DNA from: Natronobacterium haloterrestre
GTDB taxonomy: Archaea > Halobacteriota > Halobacteria > Halobacteriales > Natrialbaceae
Assembly: GCF_900112205.1 (NCBI RefSeq)
Contig: NZ_FOKW01000006.1
Coordinates: 124,001 to 188,000, forward strand
Direction of reading: 5' to 3'
DNA length: 64,000 bases
The translations under genes were made by a program, and so were the position numbers. The notes under the pieces were generated by a model. It searched no databases and was not told where the DNA came from. It saw only the letters and a list, made by a program, of their open reading frames with translations. Position 1 is the stretch's first letter, and each line of letters opens with the position of its first letter. Shown in pieces: positions 1,297 to 30,881 of this stretch.

Positions 1297-1298
1297 CG

Positions 1299-2297: not shown

Positions 2298-2408
2298 GGT
2301 TTGAAACCACCTGCCTATCTTCGAGGGGCGGTGCCGTTTGTCGGGTTCATATCGAAGTGTCGTCGAGAGAGCCGAGTCGGTCCGGAGCCGACCCCGGCGA
2401 CGTCGACC

Positions 2409-4079
2409 CTACTCGTCGATCCAGGTGTTCTGGTAGTCGGAGACGATTCGCGGGTTGTAGCTGACCGACGGGTGCGCGTGGAGGTCCTTGACCTCCTCCC
2501 GTGCGGCCATCGTGTTGTGCTCGGTGTACGCCGGGAGGACGGGCAGGTACTCGAGGATTTCTTCGGTAACGCTGATGTACAACTCCCGTCGTTCCTCCTG
2601 ATCGGCGCTCTCGCGGGCGTTCAGGATGTTGTCGTGGAACTCGCCCTGTCCCTCGTAGAAGTGGCCCTGTGCGACGCCTTCCTGACTCTCGTGGAACAGG
2701 TTGTAGTAGTAGACGTCGGGGTCCGGACCGCCGGTCCAGCCAAGCAGGTACATCTCGTAGTCGTCGACGTTCCCGGTGTTGTACGTATCGACCAGCGTCG
2801 CGAACGACATCCCCTGGACGTCGGCACCGTAGCCGATCTCGGTCAGGCGCGACCCGATGCGCTCGGCCAGGGCCTCGCGCGGACCGCCCTCCGGCGCGAT
2901 GATCCGCGGTTCCCAGTCGTCGGGGACGCCAGCGTCCGCGAGCAGTTGCTCGGCCTGATCGGGGTCGTACTCGGGCATCATCCCTTCCCACTCGTCCATC
3001 GGGAAGTCCCAGTTCCCCGATTCGTTCGTGATCGGTGGAACCGGACTCTCGAGCGGATCGGCCGCCGGACCGAGGTGTTCGTTGACGAACTCCCGCATCG
3101 AGAACGAGTGACCGACCGCACGCCGGACGTCGGGATCGGTCGTTTCGCCCTCGTTGCAGTTGAACGCGAGGTACATGTACGACGGACTGCGGCTTCCGTG
3201 GATCCGGACGCCGTCCGCGCCCTCGACTTCGTCCCACTCCGTCGCGGGAACGGTGTCGATGACGTCGGTGTCCCCCGCAAGCACCTGCGCGATACGGTTC
3301 GCGTCGTCCGGCGCGGCCTCGAACCGGATGTCCGCGACGTACGGCTGCGGATCGTCCCAGTAGTCGTCCCACCGCTCGAGTTCGACGTACTCGCCGGCCT
3401 GAAAGTCCGCGAACTGGAACGGGCCGGACCCGATCGGATCCGTATTGAACGCCTCGCGGTCCTCCGTGCGGACCTCTTCCGGAACGACCGGGACGGCCAT
3501 CGTCGACAGGGTGAACGGTCCGTACGGGAACTCGAGGTTGACCTCGAGGGAGTAGTCGTCGATCGCCTCGGCCGACTCGATCATCCCGTAGGTCGCCGCG
3601 TTCTGGGTCTCCTCCTCCACCGGAGCCGTAAAGGAGTGTGCGACGTCGGAGGCGGTCACCTCGTCGCCGTTGTGGAACTCGATGCCCTCCTGAATCTCGA
3701 AGATGTACGTCTCGCCGTCGTCTTCCTCCTCGGGCATCCCGTCTGCGATCTTGGGCTCGAGTTCCAGCTGGTCGTCCCACTCGTAGAGGCCGTCGAACAC
3801 GAGGTTCGCGACCTGCATGCTGTAGGAGTCGAACGAAACGACCGGGTCGAAGTCCTCGTCCCGTTCCGCCGGCTGGAGGAACTCGAGGGAGTCGCTCCGG
3901 TCCCCGTCGTCCGGTTCTTCCCTATCGTACTGGAATTCGCTAATGTCGGCGACGTCGTCGCCGTTCCCGTCGCCGTCGCCACCATCCTCACCGATGCACC
4001 CTGCGATGGCCGCTGCGGAGACAGCCGCCCCGGAGGCGAGGACTCGCCGACGGGTCGGCTGCAGTGACTGTCGTACCAT
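2409..4079 (-). CDS. Peptide-binding lipoprotein, SBP family 5 (first transporter)
   Basis: A 556-residue extracellular solute-binding protein of the DppA/OppA family, first gene of the operon. The N-terminus has a twin-arginine signal (RRRVL at 10-14) ending in a lipobox AIAGC with the lipid-carrying Cys at 28, then a Gly/Asp-rich linker. The family core EGIEFHNGDEVTASDV follows in the usual N-terminal half, and the GIDV-like and D-P-D-x-Y segments lie in the C-terminal half, so the order is canonical. It should be folded before Tat export, anchored to the outer membrane face and deliver peptides to DppBC. Opines, nickel or sugars are possible alternatives in this family. Confidence 0.92.
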   Translation of the reverse strand: MVRQSLQPTRRRVLASGAAVSAAAIAGCIGEDGGDGDGNGDDVADISEFQYDREEPDDGDRSDSLEFLQPAERDEDFDPVVSFDSYSMQVANLVFDGLYEWDDQLELEPKIADGMPEEEDDGETYIFEIQEGIEFHNGDEVTASDVAHSFTAPVEEETQNAATYGMIESAEAIDDYSLEVNLEFPYGPFTLSTMAVPVVPEEVRTEDREAFNTDPIGSGPFQFADFQAGEYVELERWDDYWDDPQPYVADIRFEAAPDDANRIAQVLAGDTDVIDTVPATEWDEVEGADGVRIHGSRSPSYMYLAFNCNEGETTDPDVRRAVGHSFSMREFVNEHLGPAADPLESPVPPITNESGNWDFPMDEWEGMMPEYDPDQAEQLLADAGVPDDWEPRIIAPEGGPREALAERIGSRLTEIGYGADVQGMSFATLVDTYNTGNVDDYEMYLLGWTGGPDPDVYYYNLFHESQEGVAQGHFYEGQGEFHDNILNARESADQEERRELYISVTEEILEYLPVLPAYTEHNTMAAREEVKDLHAHPSVSYNPRIVSDYQNTWIDE

Positions 4080-8288: not shown

Positions 8289-10024
8289 CAGCCACCACCT
8301 CCGCTTGCGGCGGCACTGGTTCCGGCCTCGTCGCCGCTGGCATCACTTTCGGGGTCGATCGCGTCGCGGATGCCGTCGCCCAGCGCGTTGAACGCGGTGA
8401 CGAGGAACACGACCATCAGCCCCGGAATCGTGGCGGTGTGCCACGACGAGGTCGGAACGTAGGGTCGACCCTCGTAGACCGCACGTCCCCACTCGGGCGT
8501 CGGCGGCTGCACGCCGAACCCGAGGAACGAGAGTGCGGCGACGCCGATAATGACCCCGCCGAGGGTCATCGACGCGTACACGAGCATGTAGCCCGCGATG
8601 TAGGGCGACATGTGCTTTTTCATCGTTTCGACTGGACTCTGCCCGTAGCTCCGGGCGGCATCGACCCACTCCTCCTCGGCGACCTGCAGCGCCGGACCAC
8701 GGACCGCACGCCACAGCAGCGGCCACCCGGTCGCCGCGAAGATCAACGCCAGCAGTAAGCCGCCGTCGTAGATCGTTGCGATCGGATGGTTCGCTTCCAT
8801 GAACACGACCGAGAGGAGCAACACGACCAGCAACCGCGGCAGCGAGATGATCGAGTCGCTGACGACCACCGTGAGCAGGTCGAGCAGCCCCTTGTAGTAG
8901 GCCGTCATTAGCGCAAGCGCCGTCGCAACGAGGGTCATCAGCCCGGTCGCGAGTAGACCGATGACGAGCGACACCTGTGATCCGTACGCGAGGAAGGTAA
9001 ACAGGTCCTTCCCGTCTTGATTCGTCCCCGCCGGATGGAACCTGTCGTACTTGTCGTAGCTCATCAGGCCGACGTTACTGTCGCCGCCGACCGACCGCGT
9101 CTCGAGGTTCGCCTCACCGTGAGGGATCGAGGCGACGTCTTCGATCTCCTCGTCGTAGTACTGTACTTCGTGTTCGTACGGACTGTAGAGGTTCGCTTCC
9201 GCAGTGACCGGGCTGAGTGCCGGTGCCCACAGGGCCATCACGACGAAGACGAAGACGACGACGAACCCGAACACCCCCCAGTAGTGGTTCCGGAACCGAT
9301 TGACGCTGTCGTCACGGGGCGTCCAGTCGGCCTCGCGGTAGTGGTTCCGGAAGACGTTGTACCCCCTCCAGAACCACGCGAGGAGACCGAACGCGTAGGC
9401 GTAGATGAGAAGCACGCGAGCGCCCCACGCCATCGCGGGCGAGAGCCCGAGCCAGGTCCCCTCCCAGCTTCCGTCGGGCAGCTGGTACCCCTGGTTGGGG
9501 ATCGTCTCGCGGCTCGTCAGGGTCTGGAGGGAACTGATCGACTCGAGACCCTGCGTGAGCGCGCCGATCACGGCGTCGACCGCGGCGCCGAGCGGCGTCG
9601 CGACGAAAAGCAGCGTGACGACGCCGACGACGGCGGTCACGATCGCCCGCTCGACGACGTCGGCCTTGCCGACGCCCAGTTCGAGCCCGAGCCGATCGAC
9701 GATCGAGAACGGGACGAACAGCCACTTGACGACGATCGCTGCGATCACGAGCAGTGCAAGCGCCGTGAGGCCGTAGGCGATCGTCCCGCCGATCGACCCG
9801 AGCGATTCGGAGACGAACCCGGCCATCCACGACGGTGTGTTCGCGATTCCGCCGATCGCGAATTTGACCACGCTGCCGACCCGGAGGACGGCGGCCGCGA
9901 TCGAGCCGAGCTCGAGCGCCATCAGGACGACGAGTCCGGCGACCCACAGCATGGCCGGTCGTGGGTTCTCTGCGATACGTTCTCGAAGGGTCTTGTCGTC
10001 GAATTCGTTTTCTACGCTCATCAT
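8288..10024 (-). CDS. Peptide ABC transporter permease, DppC-like, with an N-terminal membrane extension
   Basis: A 578-residue permease, nearly twice the usual length. Residues 1-240 are an added region with about four membrane helices (23-47, 81-104, 127-148, 201-219) and no recognised domain. The canonical DppC part starts with a helix at 249-268, followed by the extracellular loop, HPAGTNQDGKDLFTF (330-344), the EAA loop (WVDAARSYG to MKKHM) and the ending FLGFGVQPPTPEWG. A short motif FRNHY occurs twice (225-229 and 244-248) at the join, encoded by a 15-bp direct repeat. Either of the first two Met codons may start translation. Confidence 0.92.
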   Translation of the reverse strand: MMSVENEFDDKTLRERIAENPRPAMLWVAGLVVLMALELGSIAAAVLRVGSVVKFAIGGIANTPSWMAGFVSESLGSIGGTIAYGLTALALLVIAAIVVKWLFVPFSIVDRLGLELGVGKADVVERAIVTAVVGVVTLLFVATPLGAAVDAVIGALTQGLESISSLQTLTSRETIPNQGYQLPDGSWEGTWLGLSPAMAWGARVLLIYAYAFGLLAWFWRGYNVFRNHYREADWTPRDDSVNRFRNHYWGVFGFVVVFVFVVMALWAPALSPVTAEANLYSPYEHEVQYYDEEIEDVASIPHGEANLETRSVGGDSNVGLMSYDKYDRFHPAGTNQDGKDLFTFLAYGSQVSLVIGLLATGLMTLVATALALMTAYYKGLLDLLTVVVSDSIISLPRLLVVLLLSVVFMEANHPIATIYDGGLLLALIFAATGWPLLWRAVRGPALQVAEEEWVDAARSYGQSPVETMKKHMSPYIAGYMLVYASMTLGGVIIGVAALSFLGFGVQPPTPEWGRAVYEGRPYVPTSSWHTATIPGLMVVFLVTAFNALGDGIRDAIDPESDASGDEAGTSAAASGGGG

Positions 10025-11094
10025 TGATACCCCACGCGCGGATCCAGGATCGTATAGAGGAAGTCCTGAAGGATGTTGATCGACACGATCACCAGGATGA
10101 AGATGAACATCAGCGAGGAGACGAGCGGGAAGTCACCCTGGATGGCACCCTGGTAGAACAGGTAGCCGAGGCCGTTGATCCCGAAGATGACCTCGACGAT
10201 GACCGACCCGCCGATCAGGACGAACGCCTCGTTCGTGATGACCGGCACGAGCGGGATCAAGGCGTTACGGAAGACGTGCTTCCAGACGATCACTCGGCTC
10301 CGGAGTCCCTTCGCCTTCGCGGTCTCGACGTAGTTGGAGTTGATCGTCTCGAGGACGGCGGTACGACTGATACGGAGTTCGTTGCCCATCAGCGAGGAGC
10401 CGAGAACGATCGCCGCCGGCAGGATCTGCTTGAACGAGGCCAGGAACGTCGTCGCCGAGAAGTAGATCCCGACCGGGATGCTGATGATACCGAGGCTGAC
10501 CCAGTCGGTGACGGCGATGAAATCGAGCGGTGGCTGTCCGACGAGGCTGTCGATCTCGACGATGAACGTGTCCCACCGGAAGCCAAACAGGAACTTGTCG
10601 CTCAGGCGCAGGAACGCCAGGAGCATGATCGCCAGCCAGAAGTTCGGCATCGCCCGCCAGACGATCCCGCCGAACGAGGCGAGATAGTCGCCCCAGGAGT
10701 TCGAGTTGAGGCCGGCGTAGAACCCGAGCGGGATTCCGACGAAGATCGGGATCAGGATGGACCAAAAGCCCAGCCACAGCGTTCGAGGCGCGTAGCTCGA
10801 AAGAAGCGCAGTCACGTCTGTCCCGGGCTGGATGACCCACGACTGGCCGAGGTCGAACGACCACGGAACCAGCATGTCGGTCATGAAGTCGATGTACTGT
10901 TCCCACAGCGGTTGATTCAATCCGAGCCGTTCTTCGATCCGCGTCCGTTGTGCCGCACCCGCTTCCGGTCCCAGGATTGCCGAGACGGGATCGATCGGTC
11001 CCATGCGGACGATAACGAACGTGATCGTCAGCCCGAAGACGATCACCGGGATCGACAGCAGGACGCGGCGAAGCAGATAGCGCCAGCGACTCAT
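10021..11094 (-). CDS. Peptide ABC transporter permease, DppB-like (second transporter)
   Basis: A 357-residue permease with the DppB start (first helix then MGPIDPVSAIL, in place of the more common PGDP) and an EAA loop NYVETAKAKG to WKHVFRN. It is slightly longer than usual through an extended extracellular loop around residues 70-110. Its stop overlaps the ATG of the DppC-like gene by four bases. The gap of 153 bases to the binding-protein gene contains no clear promoter. Confidence 0.93.
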   Translation of the reverse strand: MSRWRYLLRRVLLSIPVIVFGLTITFVIVRMGPIDPVSAILGPEAGAAQRTRIEERLGLNQPLWEQYIDFMTDMLVPWSFDLGQSWVIQPGTDVTALLSSYAPRTLWLGFWSILIPIFVGIPLGFYAGLNSNSWGDYLASFGGIVWRAMPNFWLAIMLLAFLRLSDKFLFGFRWDTFIVEIDSLVGQPPLDFIAVTDWVSLGIISIPVGIYFSATTFLASFKQILPAAIVLGSSLMGNELRISRTAVLETINSNYVETAKAKGLRSRVIVWKHVFRNALIPLVPVITNEAFVLIGGSVIVEVIFGINGLGYLFYQGAIQGDFPLVSSLMFIFILVIVSINILQDFLYTILDPRVGYQ

Positions 11095-11247
11095 CGGAGA
11101 TCACCCGGCGTTCGAGTGCGTATGCGTATCAATGTGTGTATATCTGGTCTAAGTGCCATATGAACGTTGTTTTGAGCGGGATGAACGAACCGTCCGCCGT
11201 CGAATCCGTCGACGGCGGACGGAAGGCCGGACGAGTATCGCGGTCGG

Positions 11248-13032
11248 TTATTCGTCCAGCGTCACGTCGTTATACACCTGGAAGTACTCTCCCATCGCCC
11301 CGAAGGGCTCGATGTCGACGTGATCGTAGTAGAACAGTTCCTGGAGGTCGTGATAGAGCGGGAGACAGACTGCGTCGTCCCAGACGGCCTCCTCCATTTC
11401 GATGTAGGCCTCGTTACGGACGTCTTCGTCTTCCGGATCCGAATTGGACGAGGCACGTTCCCAGGCCGACTGCGCCTTTTCGACGGCGTCGGTGTCCGCC
11501 TGGTGCCAGTCGAGGTAGTAGCCGTTCGTCTCCTCGGGCATTCGGGAGGTGTCCGTGTTCTCGGGCTCGAACCCGAAGAGTCCGTACCCGAGGTCCGGCC
11601 AGCTCCAGGTCCAGCCCAGCGAGTAGAACTCGAGGTCACCGCTCTCACCGCGCTCGATCAGGGTCGCGAACGGCGACTGCTCGAGACTGAGTTCGACGCC
11701 CAGGCCCGACAGCTGGTCGCGGAGCTCGCGGCCCGCTTCCTGGAAGACGTCCGACTCGTAGGTAGTGAGCGTCAGCTCGTAGGGGTCGTCCTCGGTGTAG
11801 CCCGCCTCCTCGAGGACTTCCCGTGCGGATTCGCGGTCGGCCTCGTCGCGGCTGTAGGGGTAGTCCGCGATGAAGTCCTCGTAGGCGTCGTTGCCGCCGG
11901 GCCACATGGCCGAGGGGGTGAACGTGTACGCTTCCTGTCCGCGGCCCTCGAAGAGGGTCTGGATCAGGGTCTCGCGGTTCATGACGTACGCGATCGCCTG
12001 TCGGACCGGACGCGGGACCGACGGAACGTTGAACGCGAAGTAGTACGTGCTCAGCTGCGGCGCGCCGACGTAATCGACCGTCTCGCCGTTTTCCATCGGG
12101 CCGTACGTCCCGATTTCACGGCCGCGGTCGTCGGTCTCCGCGTCGACCAGGCTGGATTCGTACTGGGCGGTCGGCAGTTCGAAGATGTCGGCGTTGCCCT
12201 CGATCGCGTAGGTGTACTGGGCTTCGTCGTCTTCGATGATCTGCCAGTGGACGGCGTCGACGTTAGCGACGCTGCCGTGGTAGTCGTCGAAGCGAACGAC
12301 CTCCGCTTCGGCGTCGGACTCCCAGGTTTCGAACTCGAAGGGACCGGTCCCGACCGGCTCGCTCGAGGAGAACTCGCTGTGGTCGATTTCGCCGTCGTAG
12401 CCTTCGATATCGCCGACGATGCCCTCCGGAACGACCGAGAACGCGTCGTACGAGAGAATTTCGAGCGCAGAGGGAGCCTGCGTCTCGAGCGTGATCTCGA
12501 GGGTGTAATCGTCGACGGCCTCGACGGCGAGACTCTCGGGAACGACGCCGCCCTCGTCGTCGAACTCGGCCGAGACGTTGAGGAATGTCGGCGACCCGAC
12601 GATGAAGTTCCCACGTTCGCTGTTCGTGGACTCGGCCAGTCGACGGAACGAATAGACGAAGTCATCCGCCGTCATTTCCTCGCCGTTGTGGAACTGAACA
12701 CCTTCTTTGAGCTCGAAGGTGTAGGTCAGGCCGTCGTCGGACAGTTCGTACCCTTCGGCGAGTTGGTTCGTGACGTCAGTCGTCCCGTTCGGGAAGTGCG
12801 TCAGCGGTTCGTACATCTGGCGAATGACGCGACCCGACTCGGTATCCGTCGATTGAATCGGGTCGAGCGACGTCATCGTTCCGTTAATGAGGTTAAGAGT
12901 ACCACTACTCTCGTCCTCGTCACTACCATCGTCGGGCTCTTCACCAACGCACCCGGCGAGAGCTAGTGCACCAGCAGCCCCACCAGTTGCCTTCAGGAAC
13001 GAACGTCGTTCCAGTTCGTCTCCATCCATCAT
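11248..13032 (-). CDS. Peptide-binding lipoprotein, SBP family 5 (second transporter)
   Basis: A 594-residue Tat lipoprotein: ERRSFLK at 8-14 and lipobox ALAGC with Cys28, then an acidic linker. The family core EGVQFHNGEEMTADDF lies in the N-terminal third and the segment LSGLGVELSLEQ with WTWSWPDLGYG in the C-terminal third, so the order is canonical. The frame is open back to 13071, but the TATA-like box at 13074-13087 places the transcript start near 13050, so the ATG at 13032 (or the next one at 13029) is preferred. It is the only obvious binding protein for the enlarged transporter downstream. Confidence 0.9.
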   Translation of the reverse strand: MMDGDELERRSFLKATGGAAGALALAGCVGEEPDDGSDEDESSGTLNLINGTMTSLDPIQSTDTESGRVIRQMYEPLTHFPNGTTDVTNQLAEGYELSDDGLTYTFELKEGVQFHNGEEMTADDFVYSFRRLAESTNSERGNFIVGSPTFLNVSAEFDDEGGVVPESLAVEAVDDYTLEITLETQAPSALEILSYDAFSVVPEGIVGDIEGYDGEIDHSEFSSSEPVGTGPFEFETWESDAEAEVVRFDDYHGSVANVDAVHWQIIEDDEAQYTYAIEGNADIFELPTAQYESSLVDAETDDRGREIGTYGPMENGETVDYVGAPQLSTYYFAFNVPSVPRPVRQAIAYVMNRETLIQTLFEGRGQEAYTFTPSAMWPGGNDAYEDFIADYPYSRDEADRESAREVLEEAGYTEDDPYELTLTTYESDVFQEAGRELRDQLSGLGVELSLEQSPFATLIERGESGDLEFYSLGWTWSWPDLGYGLFGFEPENTDTSRMPEETNGYYLDWHQADTDAVEKAQSAWERASSNSDPEDEDVRNEAYIEMEEAVWDDAVCLPLYHDLQELFYYDHVDIEPFGAMGEYFQVYNDVTLDE

Positions 13033-13073
13033 GATACAGTTTCCCTTAATCGAACCACCAAGTAAATCCATCG

Positions 13074-19919: not shown

Positions 19920-21314
19920 ATGACATTCCTTCCCACATCGGTGATCGGTGAGGCGTACACGGATACGACGGCATGGAACCTCCTTGCCGATCTCTCGGAT
20001 CTCGACGACCGAATGCCGGGCCACGAGGGTGAGCGGATCGGTGCGGATCTGATCGCGGATGCGTTTCGTGAAGCCGGACTCGAGGACGTCACGAAGACGT
20101 CGTTTCCGATCCCGGGGTGGTGGCGCGGGACGGCATCGTTGAGCGTTCATCACGGACGTCGGGACAGTACCTTCGCTGATTCGCACGAACTGGTCGAGTT
20201 GCCGGGGACGCCTTCGGGTGAGGTTACCGGCGAGATCGTCGACATGGGGTACGGGCTTCCGGAGGACTTCGAAGGGGTCGATCTCTCGGGATCGATCGCC
20301 ATGGCGTCGAGCCTTACCCCCGATGACTACGGTCGATGGGTTCACCGGAGCGAGAAGTACAGCTACGCGGCCGAATCGGGGGCAGAGGCGTTCCTCTTTT
20401 ACAATCACATCGAGGGTGCACTCCCGCCGACCGGCGGTATCGGACGCGTCGACGGCCCGGGACCGATTCCGGCGGTCGGCCTCAGCAAGGAGGTTGGGGT
20501 ACGTCTCGCTCGGCACTGTGAGGACGCCGAGGGGGACAGTGGGATCGAAGCGACGCTGTCGGTCGAGGCACGAAACGAACCCGCGACCTCCGCGAACGTC
20601 GAGGCGGTCGTCGGCCCCGACACGGAGGAAGAAGTGCTGTTTACCGCTCACGTCGACGCACACGACGTCGGCACCGGTGCGAACGACAACGGGTTCGGAT
20701 CCGCACTCGTCGTCGGCGTAGCGCGGATCCTCGCGTCGATCGAGGAGGACCTCGAGACCCGCGTGCGACTCGTCGTCTTCGGCGCGGAGGAAACCGGGCT
20801 GTACGGGTCGTACTACTGGACCCACACCCACGATCTCGACCGCGTCAAATGCGTGGTCAACGCCGACGGGGCGGGCTACTCGAGAAATCTCGAGATCCAC
20901 ACGCACGGGATCGAAGCGATCGGAGAGGCCTTTGCGGAGGTGAGCGACGAGTTCGCGATCCCGATCGAGATCGAGGACGGATTGCGTCCCCACAGCGATC
21001 ACTGGCCGTTCGTTCAGCGGGGCGTCGCCGGCGCCCAGGCCAGATCGAGGTCGGACGGCAGCGGTCGGGGATGGGGACACACACACGGGGACACGTTCGA
21101 CAAACTCGATCCTCGTGACCTGCGTGACCTGTCAGTGTTGTCTGCTGCCGGAGTTGCGAAGCTTGCAGAAGTGGATCGGCCGGTCGAGGCCCGGCCGAGC
21201 GATGAGATCCGCGCCGAGGCGATCGAGGAAGGGTACGACGTCGGAATGAAGGCGACGGCAACGTGGCCGTGGGGTGAGCCACGTCCGTGGCCGTGGAGCG
21301 ACCGGACCGAGTGA
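19920..21314 (+). CDS. Cytoplasmic M28 family aminopeptidase with PA domain
   Basis: A 464-residue zinc peptidase. The catalytic domain carries the two-metal ligands: AHVDAHDVG (His244, Asp246), Asp256 in NDNGFG, the Glu pair 290-291 in GAEETG, Asp316 in VNADGAG and a His in GHTHGDTFDK (385-394). Residues about 100-215 form the inserted PA domain. There is no signal peptide, unlike many secreted M28 enzymes, so it should trim imported peptides inside the cell. It stands upstream of the third peptide transporter on the same strand, which supports that role. A C-terminal Trp/Pro-rich tail (WPWGEPRPWPWS) is odd and of unknown use. Confidence 0.92.
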   Translation: MTFLPTSVIGEAYTDTTAWNLLADLSDLDDRMPGHEGERIGADLIADAFREAGLEDVTKTSFPIPGWWRGTASLSVHHGRRDSTFADSHELVELPGTPSGEVTGEIVDMGYGLPEDFEGVDLSGSIAMASSLTPDDYGRWVHRSEKYSYAAESGAEAFLFYNHIEGALPPTGGIGRVDGPGPIPAVGLSKEVGVRLARHCEDAEGDSGIEATLSVEARNEPATSANVEAVVGPDTEEEVLFTAHVDAHDVGTGANDNGFGSALVVGVARILASIEEDLETRVRLVVFGAEETGLYGSYYWTHTHDLDRVKCVVNADGAGYSRNLEIHTHGIEAIGEAFAEVSDEFAIPIEIEDGLRPHSDHWPFVQRGVAGAQARSRSDGSGRGWGHTHGDTFDKLDPRDLRDLSVLSAAGVAKLAEVDRPVEARPSDEIRAEAIEEGYDVGMKATATWPWGEPRPWPWSDRTE

Positions 21315-21730
21315 GTGCCTGGCGCCGAAACTGTACAGTGGCCGCTCAAACGGTTTGTGACCGCAATGACGCCGTGCAGTCAGGCGTACGCGTTCAGTAG
21401 AAATCGATAGTAAATAGTCAACTAGATGACAAACTGGAGAATGGGTTGCACCGCGAGCATCGTTCTGGGCCCGGACGATCGTAGGCTGGCAGACGAACAG
21501 CCCCACGTCCGGCTTTCCCTGAGACGGAGAGCTCGAGGGTGGTGTGATGGCCTCGTCTTCGGCGACCGACGGCGGAGGAGTTTACCTGATGGAGTCTGGA
21601 ATACCGAAATCATGGAGCGGATCCGTTCCCCGAGTCCGGCGACGCCCGAGGAGTACCGAAACCCGTCTGCGGGAATCCCGACCGGAGAACCGAAACGAGG
21701 ACCGACGACGCGAGAGGCATAGCGAGTGAT
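21315..21730. other. Intergenic region, possible decayed or very small gene
   Basis: 416 bases with short open frames in several directions but no family I recognise. A 37-codon frame starting ATG at 21612 (MERIRSPSPATPEEYRNPSA...) ends eight bases before the next gene and has a TTTACC box about 30 bases upstream; it may be a small real gene, but the evidence is thin. Confidence 0.35.
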
Positions 21731-21964
21731 ATGGTAGACGTTGCACGCAGTAGAGGCCGTGCGAAGATCGCTCTTGGTCTCTCGGTGTTTGCTGCAGCGA
21801 CTGCAGTCGGTTGGTTTTGGTTTCGCGGTGACCCCGTCACCGGGGCTGTACTGGGAGGGCTGTTGCTGGGCGGCGGATACTGGGAGTATCGCCGACACCT
21901 CGTGGACGTCAGGCGGGCCGCACGGGCCGAAAGCGATGTCGAGGACGATATGGGTCGTAACTGA
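21731..21964 (+). CDS. Small two-helix membrane protein
   Basis: A 77-residue protein with two hydrophobic stretches (residues 12-30, IALGLSVFAAATAVGWFWF, and 36-49, TGAVLGGLLLGGGYW) joined by a short RGDP turn. A charged tail (YRRHLVDVRRAARAESDVEDD) follows. Topology suggests both ends inside. It sits between the M28 peptidase and the permuted binding protein on the same strand, but with its own gaps of 416 and 156 bases, so a shared role is only a guess. No family recognised. Confidence 0.55.
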   Translation: MVDVARSRGRAKIALGLSVFAAATAVGWFWFRGDPVTGAVLGGLLLGGGYWEYRRHLVDVRRAARAESDVEDDMGRN

Positions 21965-22086
21965 GTAGACGATAGTGCGGTGCAGTAATATATTCACCAA
22001 AAGTACTACTGCATCATATATAATATCTTAAAACTCTTTCAGCCATCCCCCACTGTTTAAGTACATTTGACATTCTGATCGGTAGA

Positions 22087-22096
22087 CTTATTAACC
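22087..22096 (+). promoter_or_regulatory. Promoter of third peptide transporter operon
   Basis: CTTATTAACC, 25-34 bases before the binding-protein ATG, in an AT-rich approach region; a second candidate GTTTAAG is at about 22055. The nearer one predicts a leaderless transcript. Confidence 0.55.
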
Positions 22097-22120
22097 GCAG
22101 GAACACTGGTTTGATAGAGT

Positions 22121-23818
22121 ATGTCATACAAGGAAGCAACCAACCGAAGAAAATTTTTGACCAAAGCAGGCGCAACGGCGGGCCTGGTCGGGCTTACCGT
22201 GACTGCTGGCTGTTTCGGTGCCGGGGATGACGAAGAGGAAGACGAGGACGGCGGCGCCGACGTCGAGGCGACCGATCCCGACGAACTCGGCGAGCAACTG
22301 CCGACGTACCAGTTTCTCAACAACGCACAGAGCTACAATCCGCCACGCCACGACGCGATCAACCTCATGGCGGACCAGTTCGGGGAGATCGGGCTGGACA
22401 TGGAGGTCGAGGTGCTGGAGTGGGGGACCCTGTTCAATCGCGTCGACGTGGAGTACGATTACGACTTCTCGACGTGGCACACGTTCTTCACCATCGACCC
22501 GGTGCTCGAGCTCAACTCGACGATGTACTCCGAGAACACCGATCCGGGCGAGGGGAACTTCGCCGGCTACGAGAACCCCGACGCCGACGACCTGATGGAT
22601 CAGTACCTCGAGGAGCCCGACGCGGACACTCGGATCGAGTTGATCCACGATCTCCAGCGGACGCTGATGGAGGATCTGCCGCAGATGCCGGTCGTCGACA
22701 TGCCGTTCCTGGCCGTGTACAACAACGAGGAGGTCGACAACTGGGAGGCCGACCTTCCGCTCGGGTTCAACTCCTACTGGACCATGATCAACCTCGAGAT
22801 GCAGGGTGGCGAGGACACCCTGAAGGGGTACTGGCCGGAGGCGCTCGACACGATGAACGTTCTCGGTCACAACGACGAGAACAAGCATACGTACAACTTC
22901 TCGGTGATGTACGACAGCATCGTCCGCCTCGATAACGAGGGCGAGATCAACACCGACGTGAGTCTCGCAACCGACTACGAGCGGGTCGATGCGACGACGA
23001 TGGAGTACACCATCCGCGACCACACCTTCCACGACGGCGAGCCACTCACCGTCGAGGACGTCGCGTTCAGCTACAACTACATCAGCGAGAACGAGGTGCC
23101 GGTGTACTCGGTCCAGTCGAACTTCATCGACGAAGCGGAAGTGGTCGACGACAGCACCGTCCGGATCCACATGCCCGATGACAACCCCCTCGGTCCGTTC
23201 AACCTGCTCGTCGGCACGCAGATCCCGATCCTTCCCGAACACCGGTGGGCCGACCGCGACGAACCGAGCCAGGTGAACGTCCAAGAGCCCGTGGGCTCGG
23301 GCCCGCTCCAGTTCGACTACTGGGATCAGGGTGCCGAACTGGGCCTCGAACGCTTCGACGACCACTTCGCGCCGGTCGACTTCGAGCAGCGGTTCTGGCG
23401 GATCATTCCGGAGACGTCCACGGTGTGGGAGAACCTCCGTAACGGTGATCTGAACTACGAGCCGTTCGGCCGGATCGACCGCCAACTCGACGAGAACCGG
23501 GATGAAGACCAGATCAGCGTCGAGTCGCTCCCGGCCACCTCGTTCTGGCACTGCACGCCCAACCAGCGCAGCGACGGACTCGACGATCCCGAAGTCCGGA
23601 AGGCAGCGTTCAACGCAGTTCCGAGGTCGGCGATCGTCGACCAGATCCTCTTCGGCGTTCCGGAGCCCGGGTTCAACGTGGTTACCGAAGCGTTCGGTCC
23701 GCTCCACACGGACGACGTTCCCCGGTACGAGGAGGGTGTCGACGTCGCGATCGAACGACTCCAGGATGCCGGCTACGGGTACGACGAGGACGGCATGCTT
23801 CACTTCCTGGCTGAATAG
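22121..23818 (+). CDS. Peptide-binding lipoprotein, SBP family 5, apparently circularly permuted
   Basis: A 565-residue Tat lipoprotein (RRKFLTK at 9-15, lipobox TAGC with Cys31, acidic linker to 58). What follows is the family in swapped order. Residues 61-226 match the usual C-terminal lobe: GLDMEVEVLEWGTLFNRV (91-108), FTIDPVLELNSTMYS (123-137), GNFAGYENPDADDLMD (145-160). Residues 231-565 match the usual N-terminal part: YTIRDHTFHDGEPLTVEDV (296-314), GSGPLQF (392-398), SLPATSFWH (469-477), DPEVRKAAFNAVPRSAIV (489-506), ending AIERLQDAGYGYDEDG, the point where normal proteins run into the C-terminal lobe. Frame, signal and operon position are intact, so it should be functional with displaced termini. 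Confidence 0.93.
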   Translation: MSYKEATNRRKFLTKAGATAGLVGLTVTAGCFGAGDDEEEDEDGGADVEATDPDELGEQLPTYQFLNNAQSYNPPRHDAINLMADQFGEIGLDMEVEVLEWGTLFNRVDVEYDYDFSTWHTFFTIDPVLELNSTMYSENTDPGEGNFAGYENPDADDLMDQYLEEPDADTRIELIHDLQRTLMEDLPQMPVVDMPFLAVYNNEEVDNWEADLPLGFNSYWTMINLEMQGGEDTLKGYWPEALDTMNVLGHNDENKHTYNFSVMYDSIVRLDNEGEINTDVSLATDYERVDATTMEYTIRDHTFHDGEPLTVEDVAFSYNYISENEVPVYSVQSNFIDEAEVVDDSTVRIHMPDDNPLGPFNLLVGTQIPILPEHRWADRDEPSQVNVQEPVGSGPLQFDYWDQGAELGLERFDDHFAPVDFEQRFWRIIPETSTVWENLRNGDLNYEPFGRIDRQLDENRDEDQISVESLPATSFWHCTPNQRSDGLDDPEVRKAAFNAVPRSAIVDQILFGVPEPGFNVVTEAFGPLHTDDVPRYEEGVDVAIERLQDAGYGYDEDGMLHFLAE

Positions 23819-23869
23819 GAACCCGACTGCGGTGCGATTCAGATTTAATGATAATACATACGATCGAAT

Positions 23870-24847
23870 ATGAGTAAGGCAAGTTTCGTCGTCCGACGGC
23901 TGCTCCAGCTCGGCGTGACCTTCTGGGCGGTCGGAACCGTGCTGTTCTTCCTGTTCCGTCTCATGCCGGGCGATCCGACGGCGTTCGTCGTCTCCGCGCA
24001 GATGACGCCGGAGGCACGACAACAGGTAATCGAGAGCTACGGCCTCAACGAGCCGCTGTACGTCCAGTACATGCGCTTCCTCGAGAACGCGCTCACTCTC
24101 AACTTCGGGCAGTCGTTCCACACCAACCAACCGGTCCGTGAAGTGATCTGGACGTACCTCCCGAACACGCTGGTGTTGATGTTGTCCGCGTTCGTCGTCG
24201 CGTACATCCTCGGTATCGTCCTCGGCGTGCTCACCGGATGGTACCGCGGCTCCAGATTCGAAAAGACGACCGTCGTGACCGCGCTGACCGCACGGAGCCT
24301 GCCCACCTTCTACGTGGGGCTCATCGTGCTGTGGCTCTTCGGCGCGACGCTCGGTGTGATCCCGATGAGCGGAATGGGGGCGGCCGGGCAGACGTACGAC
24401 TCGTTCTGGGCCCGGATCTTCACCCTCGACTTCCTGCATCACCTCGCCGCTCCCGCAGCGGTGCTCGCGTTCTACTACATGGGCTACCCGCTCCTGATCA
24501 TGCGCTCGAGCATGATGGAAGTGCTCTCGCAGGACTTCATCGACGTCTGCCGCGCGAAAGGGCTCAGCGAGCGGGCGATCATGTTCAAGCACGCGGCACG
24601 GAACGCGTTGCTACCGATCATCACGGCTGCGGCGATCGCGCTCGGCTACGCCGTCGGCGGAAGCGTCCTCATCGAGACGGTTTTCGGGTGGCCCGGGCTC
24701 GGACGGGAGATGGTCAACGCCGTGTTGCGGCGTGACTTCCCGGTCGCGCAGGGCACGTTCATGGTGCTCGCCGCGACGATAATCATCCTGAACTTCGTCG
24801 CCGACCTGCTGTACGGCTACTTGGATCCACGGGTGACTTACGAGTAA
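23870..24847 (+). CDS. Peptide ABC transporter permease, DppB-like (third transporter)
   Basis: A 325-residue permease: first helix then RLMPGDPTAFV (27-37), extracellular NFGQSFHTNQPV, and EAA loop DFIDVCRAKGLSERAIMFKH. Length is normal. It follows the permuted binding protein by 51 bases containing an AT-rich patch (tttaatgataatacatacg) that might act as an internal promoter or processing site. Confidence 0.94.
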   Translation: MSKASFVVRRLLQLGVTFWAVGTVLFFLFRLMPGDPTAFVVSAQMTPEARQQVIESYGLNEPLYVQYMRFLENALTLNFGQSFHTNQPVREVIWTYLPNTLVLMLSAFVVAYILGIVLGVLTGWYRGSRFEKTTVVTALTARSLPTFYVGLIVLWLFGATLGVIPMSGMGAAGQTYDSFWARIFTLDFLHHLAAPAAVLAFYYMGYPLLIMRSSMMEVLSQDFIDVCRAKGLSERAIMFKHAARNALLPIITAAAIALGYAVGGSVLIETVFGWPGLGREMVNAVLRRDFPVAQGTFMVLAATIIILNFVADLLYGYLDPRVTYE

Positions 24848-24849
24848 CC

Positions 24850-25833
24850 ATGGCAACACAGGACAAACCATCGATCTTCGCGGACATCGACGACGGAGAC
24901 GTCGACCAGGAGGACGAAAGCGTCGACCGCTGGAGGCGAAACCTGCGGCTGTGGCGCGAGACGCTCACGGAACAGTGGCGTATGCTCACGGATGACCTGA
25001 TGGTTCGGCTGGCCATGATCACCATCGCCTTCTTCATGGCCGTCGCCGTGTTCGCACCGTTCATCGCGCCCCACGGGCCGCTCACCCGACAGTACGAGGG
25101 GGATGCGGGGATCATCATCGTCGACTGGGCGGAGCCGTCGTTCATGTCGGCGGAGTCGGAGTACCTCCTCGGGACGACCGCCGAAGGGTTCGATATCTTC
25201 AGTCAACTCGTGTACGGCTCCCGTGCCGCCCTGCTGGTCGGACTGGTGGCGGCAGTGTTCACCGCCGGAATCGGCACTCTCGTCGGGCTGACGGCGGGTT
25301 ACTACGGCGGCAAGATCGACGACACGCTGATGCGGATCGTCGACTTCCTGTACGGGATGCCGCTCCTGCCGACGGTGATCATTCTCGTCGCCCTGCTGGG
25401 GCCGAGCCTGTGGAACATCCTCCTGGCGATCATCCTGCTCCAGTGGCGGTCGACGGCGCGGGTGATCCGGTCACAGGCGCTGTCGCTGCGGGAGCGCCCC
25501 TTCGTCAAGGCGGCACAGGTTGCCGGTGCGAGCGACTGGCACATCATTTCCAGGCATCTCGCACCGAACGTCCTCCCACTGTCGTTCCTTTACGGGGCAT
25601 TCGCCATCGCGTGGGCCATCCTCGCGGAGGCCGGAGTCTCGTTCATCGGTCTCGGCGATCCCAACACCGTCTCGTGGGGGACGATGCTGCAGTCGTCGCG
25701 CGCGTACTCCGCGCTCGACTTCGGTGCCTGGTGGTGGTTCATTCCGCCAGGCATCTGCATCGGTCTCGTGGTCATCAGTGGGTTCCTGATCGGCCGCGGG
25801 TACGAAGAGATCACGAACCCGGAGCTCAGATAA
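24850..25833 (+). CDS. Peptide ABC transporter permease, DppC-like (third transporter)
   Basis: A 327-residue permease with an acidic N-terminal tail (ADIDDGDVDQEDESVD), first helix at about 58-77, LLGTTAEGFDIFSQLVYGSR (family form of the G-T-D-x-x-G-R-D motif), EAA loop PFVKAAQVAGASDWHIISRH and the ending SFIGLGDPNTVSWG. It starts two bases after the DppB stop and ends directly against the next ATG (TAAATG). Confidence 0.94.
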   Translation: MATQDKPSIFADIDDGDVDQEDESVDRWRRNLRLWRETLTEQWRMLTDDLMVRLAMITIAFFMAVAVFAPFIAPHGPLTRQYEGDAGIIIVDWAEPSFMSAESEYLLGTTAEGFDIFSQLVYGSRAALLVGLVAAVFTAGIGTLVGLTAGYYGGKIDDTLMRIVDFLYGMPLLPTVIILVALLGPSLWNILLAIILLQWRSTARVIRSQALSLRERPFVKAAQVAGASDWHIISRHLAPNVLPLSFLYGAFAIAWAILAEAGVSFIGLGDPNTVSWGTMLQSSRAYSALDFGAWWWFIPPGICIGLVVISGFLIGRGYEEITNPELR

Positions 25834-26886
25834 ATGTCAGTACTCGACGTTTCGGATCTAGAAGTCTACTACGAAACGGAAACGGCACCGGCACAGGCGG
25901 TCGACGGCGTCTCGTTCACCATCGAAGAAGGGGAGAACCTCGGTATCGTCGGCGAATCCGGCTGTGGAAAGACCACGCTCGCGAAGGCGATCATCGGCAT
26001 CCTCCCGGACGAGGGCTACGTCAACAACGGCTCGATCGAGTTCGAGGGTGAAGATCTCACGGAGATGTCCGACGCGGAACGGCGTCGGCACAAGTGGGAG
26101 GAGATATCGATGATCGCCCAGTCGGCGATGAACGCGCTCGATCCCGTCTACACGATCCGCGAGCAGATCGTCGAGGCGATCGAGACGCATCGCCCCGGAA
26201 CGGGCCGAACGGAGGCCAACGAGATCGTCGCCGAGATGTTCGATCTCGTCGGTCTCGACCCCGAGCGAGCGGACGACTATCCACACCAGTTCTCCGGCGG
26301 GATGCGACAGCGTGCGATGATCGCGATGGCGCTTGCACTCGAACCGTCGCTCGTGCTCGCGGACGAGCCGACGACGGCACTGGACGTGATCATGCAGGAC
26401 CAGATCCTGAAACGTATCGGGGAGATCCAGTCGGACATCAACTCCTCGATGATGGTGATCACCCACGACGTAAGCGTGGTCGCGGAGACCTGCGACCGCG
26501 TGATCGTGATGTACGCGGGCAAGATCGCGGAGGAGGGTCCCGTCGAAGAGATATTCGGGAACCCGTATCACCCGTACACGATCGGTCTCAAGCGGGCGTT
26601 CCCGAACATTCGCGAGTCGGATCAGGATCTGCTGTCGATCGCCGGCTACCCGCCGGAACTGACCGACCCCCCGTCGGGCTGTCGCTTCGCGGAGCGATGT
26701 CCGATGGCGACTACCGAGTGTCGGACGACCGAGCCCGAGCCGCACCACCAGGGCGACCTCCGGACGTACTGCCACTACGCCGACGAGATAGACGACGGCT
26801 TCCGTTCGCGGGCCGACGACCCCGAAACGTGGCGGGACACGGAGGCCGCTCGATCCGCCCGGACGGCCGCGGAGGTGAACGATTGA
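25834..26886 (+). CDS. Peptide ABC transporter ATPase, DppD-like (third transporter)
   Basis: A 350-residue ATPase of standard build: Walker A GESGCGKT at 40-47, QSAMNALDP in place of the Q-loop QDP, signature FSGGMRQRA, Walker B LVLADEP and switch MVITHDVS. The C-terminal cysteine motif CRFAERCPMATTEC plus a later Cys in TYCHY matches peptide-transporter ATPases, for which a mycobacterial relative was found to bind an iron-sulfur cluster. Between Walker A and the Q-loop there are about 60 residues, unlike the enlarged homologue at 6846-8288. Confidence 0.94.
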   Translation: MSVLDVSDLEVYYETETAPAQAVDGVSFTIEEGENLGIVGESGCGKTTLAKAIIGILPDEGYVNNGSIEFEGEDLTEMSDAERRRHKWEEISMIAQSAMNALDPVYTIREQIVEAIETHRPGTGRTEANEIVAEMFDLVGLDPERADDYPHQFSGGMRQRAMIAMALALEPSLVLADEPTTALDVIMQDQILKRIGEIQSDINSSMMVITHDVSVVAETCDRVIVMYAGKIAEEGPVEEIFGNPYHPYTIGLKRAFPNIRESDQDLLSIAGYPPELTDPPSGCRFAERCPMATTECRTTEPEPHHQGDLRTYCHYADEIDDGFRSRADDPETWRDTEAARSARTAAEVND

Positions 26887-26887
26887 G

Positions 26888-27937
26888 ATGAGCGACGCTG
26901 AATCTCCCGACGGCGCGGACGAGAACCCGCTCCTTCGGGTGGAGGGGCTACAGAAACACTTCCAGGTCGACGAGGGTCTGATATCCAGCCTCCTCCGTGC
27001 GACCATGGGAAAGGAAGCGGACTACGTCCACGCCGTCGACGGCGTGAGCTTCGAACTCGAGCGCGGCGAGACGCTCGGGCTCGCGGGCGAATCAGGCTGT
27101 GGCAAAACGACGACGGGAATGTCCCTCGTGAAACTCCACGAGCCGACCGACGGCCGGATCGAGTTCAGGGGGATGGACCTCACGGAATCCAACGACGAGG
27201 AACTCGACGAGTTCCGACGGAACGCACAGATGATCTTTCAGGATCCGTTCGAGTCGTTGAACCCCCGCATGACGGTGTACGACACCCTCGCCGAGCCGCT
27301 GCGGATCCACGACATCGAGAACGAAACCGCTCGCATCCGGCGAGCCCTGGAGTTCGCGGAACTCCAGCCACCGGACCAGTACTTCGATCAGTACCCCCAC
27401 GAACTGTCGGGCGGCCAGCGACAGCGGGTCGCCATCGCTCGAGCGCTGGTCCTGGATCCCGATTTCGTCGTCGCCGACGAACCCGTCAGCATGCTCGACG
27501 TCTCGCTGCGCGCGGGCGTGCTGTCGCTGATGGAGCGGATGACCGAGGAGTTCAACCTGTCCGTCGTCTACATCAGTCACGACCTCTCGTTGCTTCGGCA
27601 CATGTGTGATCGACTCGCGATCATGTACATGGGCGAGATCGTCGAAAAAGGAGCCACCGAGGACATCATCGAGAACCCACAGCACCCGTACACGCGCTCG
27701 CTCATCAACGCGGTGCCCGTTCCCGACCCCGACGTGGGACGCGAGCGCGTCGAACTCGCCGGGGAGGTCGGGGACGCAATCGACGTCCCCTCCGGCTGCC
27801 GGTTCCACGGCCGGTGTTCGGAGTACATCGGCGACATCTGCGAGACAGAGTCGCCCTCGCTCGAACGGAAGGCGGAGTTCGACGACGACCGTGAGGTCGC
27901 CTGTCATCTGTACGACAGTTGTGGAGAGCGATCGTAG
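26888..27937 (+). CDS. Peptide ABC transporter ATPase, DppF-like (third transporter)
   Basis: A 349-residue ATPase: Walker A GESGCGKT at 67-74, Q-loop FQDPFESLNP, signature LSGGQRQRV, Walker B FVVADEP, switch VYISHDLS. The cysteine region CRFHGRCSEYIGDIC...ACH is uninterrupted. A short insertion (LISSLLRATMGKEADYV, 31-47) before the core sits between the A-loop and strand 2. Last gene of the operon; the stop is followed after 12 bases by a 7-bp tandem repeat. Confidence 0.94.
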   Translation: MSDAESPDGADENPLLRVEGLQKHFQVDEGLISSLLRATMGKEADYVHAVDGVSFELERGETLGLAGESGCGKTTTGMSLVKLHEPTDGRIEFRGMDLTESNDEELDEFRRNAQMIFQDPFESLNPRMTVYDTLAEPLRIHDIENETARIRRALEFAELQPPDQYFDQYPHELSGGQRQRVAIARALVLDPDFVVADEPVSMLDVSLRAGVLSLMERMTEEFNLSVVYISHDLSLLRHMCDRLAIMYMGEIVEKGATEDIIENPQHPYTRSLINAVPVPDPDVGRERVELAGEVGDAIDVPSGCRFHGRCSEYIGDICETESPSLERKAEFDDDREVACHLYDSCGERS

Positions 27938-27949
27938 CCCTCGATCGCG

Positions 27950-27984
27950 AACTCAGAACTCAGAACTCAGAACTCAGAACTCAG
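27950..27984. repeat. Tandem repeat, 5 copies of aactcag
   Basis: Five perfect head-to-tail copies of a 7-bp unit fill the gap between two convergent genes and run into the stop codon of the minus-strand TldD-like gene. Probably slippage-prone; no termination role can be shown. Confidence 0.95.
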
Positions 27985-29426
27985 TTTTCACACCGGACGT
28001 CGAGCCGTATCGCGGGTGCCGTGACGGCGTACGGGAGCCGTGACTTGTGTTTCGACGCGACGCCCGTCACGGTCGAGCGTGTCTCACCGATCCCGTCGAT
28101 CGTCTCGAGCGCGTCGGCCGTCCAGACCACCGTCGAGTCGACGGCCGGACCGAGTTCGCCGTCCTCGACGAGGAACCCCTCGGCGATCGGGAGTTCGACC
28201 GTCCCGGCGTCGGGGCAGTCGCCCATCCGTTCCGCGACGTCGTGAGCGTACAGCGAACTCGGTGGCATCGCACCGTTGCGCTGCGTTCGTTCGAACTCGT
28301 CGCGGTAGAAGGCCGGCCCGAAGCGGCGGACGTACACGTCCGCATCGGCCAGCAGTTCGTCCCTGCTCGCCGCTCCAGCGTGAACGTTCAGGTGGCGGTG
28401 ATGGATTCGGGGGGCCTGCTCGAACCCGATCGCCGGGATTACGTTGCCGGCCGGGATTTCTTCGGCTTTTGCAGCCGTCGTCGTGTCGTGGAGGAACGAC
28501 TCGACTCGCCCCTGGTCGACGAGTCGGACCGGCGTGGTCGGTCGAGCCTCGGCGTCGTACGCTGTGGCAGCCCACGACCCCGGCCGAATTCCATCGTCGA
28601 TCGTCAACGGAGCGTCGGTCACCCGGTCGCCCGGCTCGAACGGGGAAAATCCGAACGCCGCGACGTCGGCCGCGAGATACCCGCCGATCTCGTGACAGAG
28701 CTGTCCGGTCGCAGACGGGCTCAACACGACGGTCGTGGGCCCGGACGGCGGATCGGCTGTGGCTGCGCTCGCGATCGTACTCGCGTCGCGGTCGATCTCC
28801 GCAAAGAGGTTCGGAAGGCGGTCGAGGAGCGCTGCGCCGCGAGTACTGCCGTGATGACGCCGGAGCTTGGGCCCGTCGACGGGTGCGACCGTCGCGTCCA
28901 CGCTTGCCCGATCGACCGTCGTTCGGACCACGCTGTCCGCGGTCGTCGCGATCGAGTGGTCCACGCGCTCGTCGGCGTACGTTATTCGGGCGCGGTCGAG
29001 TGGCGTCTCGACCGCCTCGAGGGCGGCCTCCACGGACGCACGCTTCTCCGAGAGGGAGCGGTCCGTGACTGACTCGCGGGCCCAGCCGTCGTGGACGCCC
29101 CGGTGACTCGATTCGACGTCGACGCGTTCGGGCGCCGACTGAGCGAGCTGGTTGCCACCGGTCGTGGCGCGACTCGCGGCGTCGGAGAGGGCATTCGACG
29201 AGAGGTCGCTCGTGAACCGATACGCCGCGGAACCACCGGCAAAGACGCGACACCAGACGCCGGTCGTCGTCCACTCGCTGTCGCTTCGCACCCCGGTTTC
29301 GGTGACGACGACTTCCGTCGCGTTCCTCGTGATTCCGCCGACCTCCGCGAAGGAAACTTCGTCGTCCGATTCCAGAATGGTTAGCAGTTCGTCGACCGCC
29401 TCAACGACGTCCCCCCGTTCGCTCAT
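27981..29426 (-). CDS. TldD/PmbA-like protein with a degenerate metal motif
   Basis: A 481-residue member of the TldD/TldE family, which in bacteria acts on unfolded or modified peptides. The domain order fits: N-terminal alpha/beta part, then a segment around 240-260 equivalent to the TldD metal helix, then a beta-rich C-terminal part with EIPAGNVIPAIGF and IAEGFLVEDGELG. In TldD the metal helix is HExxxH; here it reads HEIGGY (His245, Glu246, Tyr250), so the second His is lost while TldE-type proteins normally lose all of it. No partner gene is adjacent. It is convergent with the peptide transporter and divergent from an M20 hydrolase, consistent with peptide metabolism. Confidence 0.85.
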   Translation of the reverse strand: MSERGDVVEAVDELLTILESDDEVSFAEVGGITRNATEVVVTETGVRSDSEWTTTGVWCRVFAGGSAAYRFTSDLSSNALSDAASRATTGGNQLAQSAPERVDVESSHRGVHDGWARESVTDRSLSEKRASVEAALEAVETPLDRARITYADERVDHSIATTADSVVRTTVDRASVDATVAPVDGPKLRRHHGSTRGAALLDRLPNLFAEIDRDASTIASAATADPPSGPTTVVLSPSATGQLCHEIGGYLAADVAAFGFSPFEPGDRVTDAPLTIDDGIRPGSWAATAYDAEARPTTPVRLVDQGRVESFLHDTTTAAKAEEIPAGNVIPAIGFEQAPRIHHRHLNVHAGAASRDELLADADVYVRRFGPAFYRDEFERTQRNGAMPPSSLYAHDVAERMGDCPDAGTVELPIAEGFLVEDGELGPAVDSTVVWTADALETIDGIGETRSTVTGVASKHKSRLPYAVTAPAIRLDVRCEN

Positions 29427-29465
29427 TGGTCCCCGTTTCCGGTCTCGAAACTTGAATCTTCGTCA

Positions 29466-29486
29466 CGACGAGGGGGACCCTCGTCG
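29466..29486. promoter_or_regulatory. Perfect hairpin between the TldD-like and M20 genes
   Basis: A 9-bp perfect stem (cgacgaggg / ccctcgtcg) with a 3-base loop, 40 bases before the TldD-like ATG and 127 before the M20 ATG. Its position between divergent genes suggests an operator; a chance GC palindrome cannot be excluded. A second weak dyad gtaac-N6-gttac follows at 29501-29516. Confidence 0.45.
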
Positions 29487-29612
29487 GGAACGACAGGACA
29501 GTAACTTGCCTGTTACAGACGGGAAACCCGGACCCAGCCCGACAGGAACGACCGGTACCGATCGACTCGCCGCCAACCAATGTTTTTTCACCGCCCTCTG
29601 AGAGTCACTGTC

Positions 29613-30881
29613 ATGGACACGCTTGACACGTTCGTTGAGGCTCCTCTTCGCGACGTTCGACGGGATCTCCACGCGCATCCGGAGGCGGGCTGGAAGGAGT
29701 TCCGGACGACGGCACTGCTCGCGGACGCACTCGAGGATCTCGGATACGACGTGCTGTTGGGTTCGGAGACGGTCGATCCCGACGAACGACTGGGAGTCCC
29801 GCCGGCGGACGACGTCGCCGCGGCTCGAGCGCGCGCCCGTAACGAGGGAGCGCCTGAAGAGTATCTCGACGAGATGGGCGACATCACCGGCGTTATCGCG
29901 ACGAAGACGTTCGGTGACGGCCCCGTGATCGGAGTCCGGACCGACATCGACGCCCTCCCGATGCAGGAAGCGATGGACGACGACCATCGACCGGCCCGGG
30001 AAGGATTCGCGAGCGCTCATCCCGGGGAAATGCACGCCTGCGGCCACGATGCACACGCAGCGATCGGGCTCGGCGTCGCCCGCGAGTTCGCCGGAAACGG
30101 ATTCGACGGCACGCTAAAACTCTTCTTCCAGTCCGCGGAGGAGGGGGGTCGCGGCGGGAAGCCGATGGCCGAGTCGGGCCACCTCGACGATGTCGACCAC
30201 CTGCTTGCCGTACACGTCGGACTCGACGAACCGACCGGGACGGTGCTGTCCAGTTACGACGCACCGCTCGCGAACGCCAAACTCGACGTCACGTTCGACG
30301 GGGAACCGGCACACGCGGGCCGCGAGCCGAACGCCGGACGAAACGCGCTTCAGGCCGCGACGGCGGCGATCGGAAACCTGTACGGCATTGCACGACACGG
30401 GGACGAACGGACCCGGATCAACGTCGGCCGCGTAAGCGCCGACAACGCACAGAACGTCATCTGTGAAGAGGCAACGATGCGCGTCGAAGTCCGTGGCGGA
30501 ACCCACGACGCCAACGAGTACATGCTCGAGCGTGCACGCGAGGTGATCGATGGTGCGGCGACGATGCACGACGTGGACTACGAGACGAGCCTCTACGGAA
30601 AGACGACGACGTTCGAGAACGACGACGCTCTGACGGAACGCGTCGAAGCAGCGGCACGGGCGACCGAAGCCGTCGACGAGATAATCAGAAAAGAGTTCGG
30701 CGGCAGCGAGGACGCCTCGTATCTCATCCGCCGGGTCCAGAAGCAGGGCGGCACCGCGACGTACCTCGGTATCGGCGCGAGTAATTCCGCGGGCCACCAC
30801 ACGGCGTACTTCGACATCGACGAGACGGCCATCGACATCGGCGTCGACGTGCTCGTCGACACGGTCGAACTGCTCACCTGA
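29613..30881 (+). CDS. M20 family amidohydrolase / aminoacylase-like metallopeptidase
   Basis: A 422-residue zinc amidohydrolase. Metal and catalytic residues are visible: MHACGHDAH (140-148, Cys143, His145, His148), the Glu pair in QSAEEG (173-178) and a late His in NSAGHHTAYF. An extra segment (about 53-90, rich in Ala/Arg) before DITGVIATK resembles AbgA-type enzymes that split aminobenzoyl-glutamate or N-acyl amino acids. The dimerisation domain (ANAKLDVTFDGEPAHAGREPN) is present. No signal peptide, so it acts inside the cell. The ATG at 29613 is preferred over 29580 because the extra residues are not family-like. Exact substrate unknown; peptide or acyl-amino-acid turnover is likely. Confidence 0.88.
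   Translation: MDTLDTFVEAPLRDVRRDLHAHPEAGWKEFRTTALLADALEDLGYDVLLGSETVDPDERLGVPPADDVAAARARARNEGAPEEYLDEMGDITGVIATKTFGDGPVIGVRTDIDALPMQEAMDDDHRPAREGFASAHPGEMHACGHDAHAAIGLGVAREFAGNGFDGTLKLFFQSAEEGGRGGKPMAESGHLDDVDHLLAVHVGLDEPTGTVLSSYDAPLANAKLDVTFDGEPAHAGREPNAGRNALQAATAAIGNLYGIARHGDERTRINVGRVSADNAQNVICEEATMRVEVRGGTHDANEYMLERAREVIDGAATMHDVDYETSLYGKTTTFENDDALTERVEAAARATEAVDEIIRKEFGGSEDASYLIRRVQKQGGTATYLGIGASNSAGHHTAYFDIDETAIDIGVDVLVDTVELLT

Follow-up and report, generated by a model that had tools for sequence, protein, structure and literature searches.

The type I and type II topologies of periplasmic-binding proteins go back to an old rearrangement of strand order. Natural circular permutation is, to our knowledge, rare, and a family typically shows it once. 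One such case is TpMglB-2 of Treponema pallidum, which together with its homologues ("Type Ic / Cluster Bc") represents a naturally permuted, tethered ABC binding protein conserved in a clade; its authors suggested that permutation and tethering are linked (PMC4990184). For the ribose-binding protein, duplication and swapping are reported (PMC9815098). Apart from YejA, published oligopeptide-binding structures have their N- and C-termini close to each other, next to the sheet of domain I (PMC10924461). All described members of family 5 (PF00496, cluster C), among them DppA, OppA and AppA, share one linear order of segments, and the protein described here, P0001, does not follow it. Comparison with DppA, OppA and AppA reveals full-length homology, an export signal and dppBCDF partner genes in common. 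The differences are that the C-terminal third of P0001 comes first, with the chain cut between DppA residues 368 and 371 and the old termini joined, that residues R383 and D436 are not conserved, and that the lipid anchor would sit on the other lobe. TpMglB-2 differs from P0001 as a cluster B sugar-binding protein of another fold class (P0001 has no match to that fold, only to PF00496 in Pfam), in which strands of the N-lobe have moved to the C-terminus; it also stands for one described clade, whereas the cluster C case comprises repeated events. While the type I and type II topologies are an ancient fold-level difference between whole classes, P0001 is permuted inside one family. Searches of open-licence papers found no description of a permuted Opp/Dpp, cluster C or haloarchaeal binding protein, and within that literature the statement of the first-pass annotation that no permutation is described in family 5 holds, with TpMglB-2 as the cluster B precedent.

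The gene for P0001 lies in the window (the whole stretch of 64,000 nucleotides that was analysed) as an intact frame from ATG to stop, and the N-terminus of its product reads as a Tat motif with a lipobox, as is present in most of its relatives (Table 1). Numbered as in E. coli DppA, the chain runs from 371 to the end, through a linker of about five residues and then from 33 to 368, with the old N-terminal segment stopping just past DAGY552, the equivalent of DppA 368. The Pfam scan of P0001 returns SBP_bac_5 only (163.5 bits, against a gathering score of 32.4), with residues 282–559 matching profile positions 6–285 plus a second stretch; the six-frame scan of the whole genome places the end of the profile (287–362) upstream of its beginning at this gene. 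With phmmer against AppA (1xoc), residues 256–559 correspond to chain residues 45–352 and residues 65–185 to chain residues 362–480. Placing residues 60–228 after residue 565 yields one Pfam stretch (6–362 of 368) at 174.9 bits, compared with 163.5 bits in two pieces, and single full-length collinear matches in the PDB, such as AppA 44–480 and HbpA 28–508. Homology to family 5 over the full mature length appears only after this rearrangement.

We also scored all rotations of residues 60–562 against a profile of 19 canonical proteins, none of them from the same genome. The best rotation starts at residue 221, with 276.6 bits over profile positions 13–487 of 501 and a plateau at 200–238; the best single domain of the unrotated protein reaches 198.4 bits and shuffled sequences about 0 bits. 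The rotation scores refer to cores without the acidic linker, which, if left in, splits the profile match into two domains and blurs the optimum. Two comparators in the window show the normal order, and PF00496 covers each in one stretch. At the level of sequence, the comparisons confirm P0001 as a circularly permuted solute-binding protein of family 5 (PF00496, cluster C); because its segment order differs, it is filed as a permuted subclass rather than as a standard member of the family. What the first-pass annotation had claimed for the gene at sequence level is borne out throughout: an intact, in-frame gene with a Tat lipobox, the segment boundaries (to within about five residues), a full-length alignment once rearranged, and normal order in the two comparators. 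Among the best 60 of 118 matches to solved chains none is collinear with the permuted profile; each has its best stretch on the old N-terminal segment. AlphaFold2 with a shallow alignment of five sequences gave pLDDT values of 28 and 30 for the full-length and mature protein; a scan of viral contigs to deepen the alignment found no relatives.

Table 1 Features of the P0001 locus and the proteins with the third cut site (window coordinates unless a locus is named)
Feature	Coordinates	Strand	Evidence or remarks
Circularly permuted family 5 solute-binding lipoprotein (P0001), 565 aa	22121..23818	+	ORF; PF00496 in two swapped pieces; full-length once rearranged
Residues 1–59: Tat signal, lipobox (NRRKFL...TVTAGC, Cys31), acidic linker	22121..22297	+	sequence reading
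Moved C-terminal segment, residues 60–226 (DppA about 371 to C-terminus)	22298..22798	+	alignment
New joint of old C- and N-termini, residues 227–231 (MQGGE)	22799..22813	+	rotation scoring; joint comparison
Old N-terminal segment, residues 232–565 (DppA 33–368 and short tail), ending after AGY helix	22814..23815	+	alignment
DppB-type permease	23870..24847	+	PF00528 and PF19300; NCBIfam Opp/Dpp B models below cut-off
DppC-type permease	24850..25833	+	PF00528 and PF12911
DppD-type ATPase	25834..26886	+	PF00005 and PF08352 oligo_HPY
DppF-type ATPase	26888..27937	+	PF00005 and PF08352
M28 peptidase, upstream of P0001	19920..21314	+	PF04389
TldD/PmbA metallopeptidase-like gene	27981..29426	-	PF19289; also in Halorussus
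M20 peptidase	29580..30881	+	PF01546
Canonical-order family 5 binding protein (comparator)	2409..4079	-	PF00496 1–365, one stretch
Canonical-order family 5 binding protein (comparator)	11248..13071	-	PF00496 2–358, one stretch
Third-cut-site proteins, Bacillota	L131:796-2511 (-), L132, L133:795-2597 (-)		genomes G871, G847, G829

An assembly or annotation artefact, in which two genes had been falsely joined, would give the same picture, and the source genome is a draft of 31 contigs. The same order is nevertheless seen in independent assemblies of Natrialba hulunbeirensis, Natronococcus pandeyae, Halorubrum vacuolatum and Halorubrum alkaliphilum, where the orthologues are 81–93% identical, and on complete haloarchaeal and alphaproteobacterial plasmids. 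The reading frame is unbroken, and dN/dS against those orthologues is low, at 0.09–0.17 overall and 0–0.21 across the joint (residues 215–245), over which dN is about 0 against the two nearest of them. The orthologues in other species rule out a false join, which the first-pass annotation had named as grounds for rejecting its reading, and we give an artefact next to no chance. The other ground it had named, a rearranged sequence that fails to match family 5 from end to end, falls as well. P0001 is kept under purifying selection.

The first-pass annotation put the scale too low. P0001 is no lone oddity: it belongs to a large clade, and separate permutations are found elsewhere in the family. 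In a survey of 391 Halobacteria with P0001 as the query, more than 80 of the matches listed are collinear from about residue 7 to about residue 560, at identities down to about 28%. A profile built from 29 permuted proteins (A2) finds a collinear member in at least 29 of 43 Halobacteria genomes and in four genomes of one other archaeal family of the same phylum (f15, going by sequence style perhaps Archaeoglobaceae); in the other families of the phylum it matches the old N-terminal segment only. Five of the eight family 5 proteins in the genome of P0001 are permuted, the four others (L063 on C15, L064 on C20, and two genes at L065 on C21) being about 646–690 aa long with acidic insertions. Permuted members also occur on alphaproteobacterial plasmids (Nitratireductor, Ketogulonicigenium, Maritalea, Microvirga, Neorhizobium and Roseomonas) and in Bacillota genomes, and 81 Chloroflexota-side genomes yield one candidate (L134, G752). 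Every permuted gene that carries an annotation is labelled plainly as "ABC transporter substrate-binding protein". As a separate observation, a haloarchaeal protein of canonical order (L113, genome G131) scores 269 bits with the permuted-segment profiles, which is unusually high; it may be closely related to the ancestor, or may have reverted.

The number of events was approached with 113 proteins from selected loci, each assigned to a class by which of two segment profiles matches first; for the long haloarchaeal paralogues L003, L004 and L063, in which insertions blur the rotation optimum, the class is that of the segment-profile order. The clade of P0001 comprises 34 rows of the two-segment tree, all of them permuted and drawn from Halobacteria, Alphaproteobacteria and Bacillota (SH-aLRT 99). 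Permuted L067 groups with canonical L097 and L098, and permuted L063, L059 and L109 with canonical L087. Both placements recur in the per-segment trees, with supports of 80–95 for the long segment and 73–90 for the short one. A single origin for all permuted proteins was rejected, at a cost of 208 log-likelihood units (p-AU 4.6e-8). Strongly supported branches force at least four order changes and the best tree has eight or nine, a rough count, as the trees are quick and have long branches. Three distinct cut sites are present regardless of the tree, with the circular order kept in all cases. P0001 and most other permuted proteins are cut after the AGY helix; the haloarchaeal L059 and L109 are cut before it, so that the helix sits at the new N-terminus, and their relative L063, from the genome of P0001, is cut after it. 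The Bacillota proteins L131–L133 start near DppA 236, continue across the native C-terminus into what was the N-terminus and stop near DppA 235, with the native connection from AGY helix to strand intact and the C-to-N joint present. Trees and cut sites, both read from sequence, show more than one order change in family 5. Cluster C proteins are probably unusually prone to natural permutation, with repeated changes of order, cuts around the AGY helix of lobe 2 in several lineages and near DppA 235 in a Bacillota group, and an excess of permuted over canonical proteins in some haloarchaea. None of the 113 classified proteins carries the moved segment on both sides, as a duplicated or fusion intermediate would, and the members of 640–680 aa have longer linkers and tails without a second C segment.

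How such a chain could work can be outlined from the homology. We consider it very probable that P0001 works as a circularly permuted cluster C solute-binding protein, with the ordinary fold and export by Tat, that serves DppBCDF. The opening would lie in lobe 2, at the surface loop that leads from the AGY helix to the following strand; about five residues would bridge the former termini, which are neighbours in domain I. As the termini lie close in canonical structures, a joint of this length can close the chain; in relatives it measures about 5 to 53 residues. P0001 most likely folds as an ordinary two-lobed flytrap. After Tat export its lipid anchor would be attached to a new N-terminus on lobe 2 instead of lobe 1, and it would pass its ligand on to the adjacent DppBCDF translocator; peptides or compounds derived from them are the probable ligand. 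The path to this order probably led through duplication of the C-terminal segment or fusion of tandem genes, followed by trimming. The rearrangement is old, being common to the whole clade in Halobacteria, Alphaproteobacteria and Bacillota, and independent permutations of the same family seem to have taken place elsewhere, one of them at a very different loop. The topology cannot be put down to anchoring alone, since the alphaproteobacterial members have signal peptides without an evident lipobox, and L067:3730-5472 (minus strand; genome G549, outside Halobacteria) also lacks one and ends in a hydrophobic C-terminal segment that resembles a PGF-CTERM anchor.

Order and fold would be the same if a C-terminal segment taken from another family 5 gene had come to lie behind the signal peptide and the original one had been lost, in which case the two halves have different ancestors. 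Divergence is deep, mutation can easily reach such a state by duplication or capture and later truncation, and the same possibility was raised by the TpMglB-2 authors for their protein (PMC4990184). Such a chimera is nonetheless unlikely, as the two segment trees agree on the small groups that can be tested (L087/L063/L059/L109 and L067/L097/L098) and the two-segment tree holds the main clade at 99. This tree establishes changes of order but leaves their direction free, so the permuted order could also be ancestral, with canonical proteins arising by reverse permutation. Every solved chain that was matched is canonical, however, canonical order is the rule in the sampled Chloroflexota-side and other same-phylum genomes, and there is a third cut site, which together make this reading very improbable. 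A joint of about five residues is short, and might suggest that the permuted chain functions only in a domain-swapped dimer, where lobe 1 of one molecule is completed by lobe 2 of another. Since the native termini are close (PMC10924461), a short joint is enough, and its variation in length among relatives is as expected of a surface loop; we give the swapped dimer hardly any weight. Several permutations have apparently occurred in a major nutrient-uptake family, and purifying selection has maintained the products. If so, nature has repeated its experiment on chain topology, folding and tethering within one of the largest binding-protein families, and the effect of an anchor shift from lobe 1 to lobe 2 on translocator docking becomes testable. 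The permuted proteins are natural scaffolds for permuted biosensors. Annotation is affected as well, because profile matches look split or truncated, and so are structure prediction and ligand inference.

The complete set of DppBCDF genes reported at first pass behind P0001 is intact and Pfam-supported. All nine NCBIfam matches of P0001 fall far below their cut-offs (the DppA equivalog at 41.7 bits against 1005). R383 and D436 of DppA clamp dipeptides (PMC12136057); in P0001 the former aligns with a gap and the latter with Thr124. With neither residue conserved, the ligand would not be bound in the manner of DppA, and the argument for a peptide role comes from gene context alone. The label "peptide-binding" given at first pass is thus an inference. 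The neighbouring peptidase genes (M28, TldD/PmbA and M20) favour peptides or peptide derivatives as the ligand. Alphaproteobacterial permuted genes lie, where annotated, in complete ABC operons, and the operons of Ketogulonicigenium and Roseomonas have M28 and M20 peptidases alongside. M28, M20 or TldD/PmbA genes recur beside permuted-protein operons at L075, L119, L121 and L078 and at 19920–30881 of the window, hinting at one substrate class in bacteria and haloarchaea. The window also holds two more Opp/Dpp-type ABC operons with canonical binding proteins, at 301–4079 and 5500–13071, both on the minus strand, opposite to P0001.
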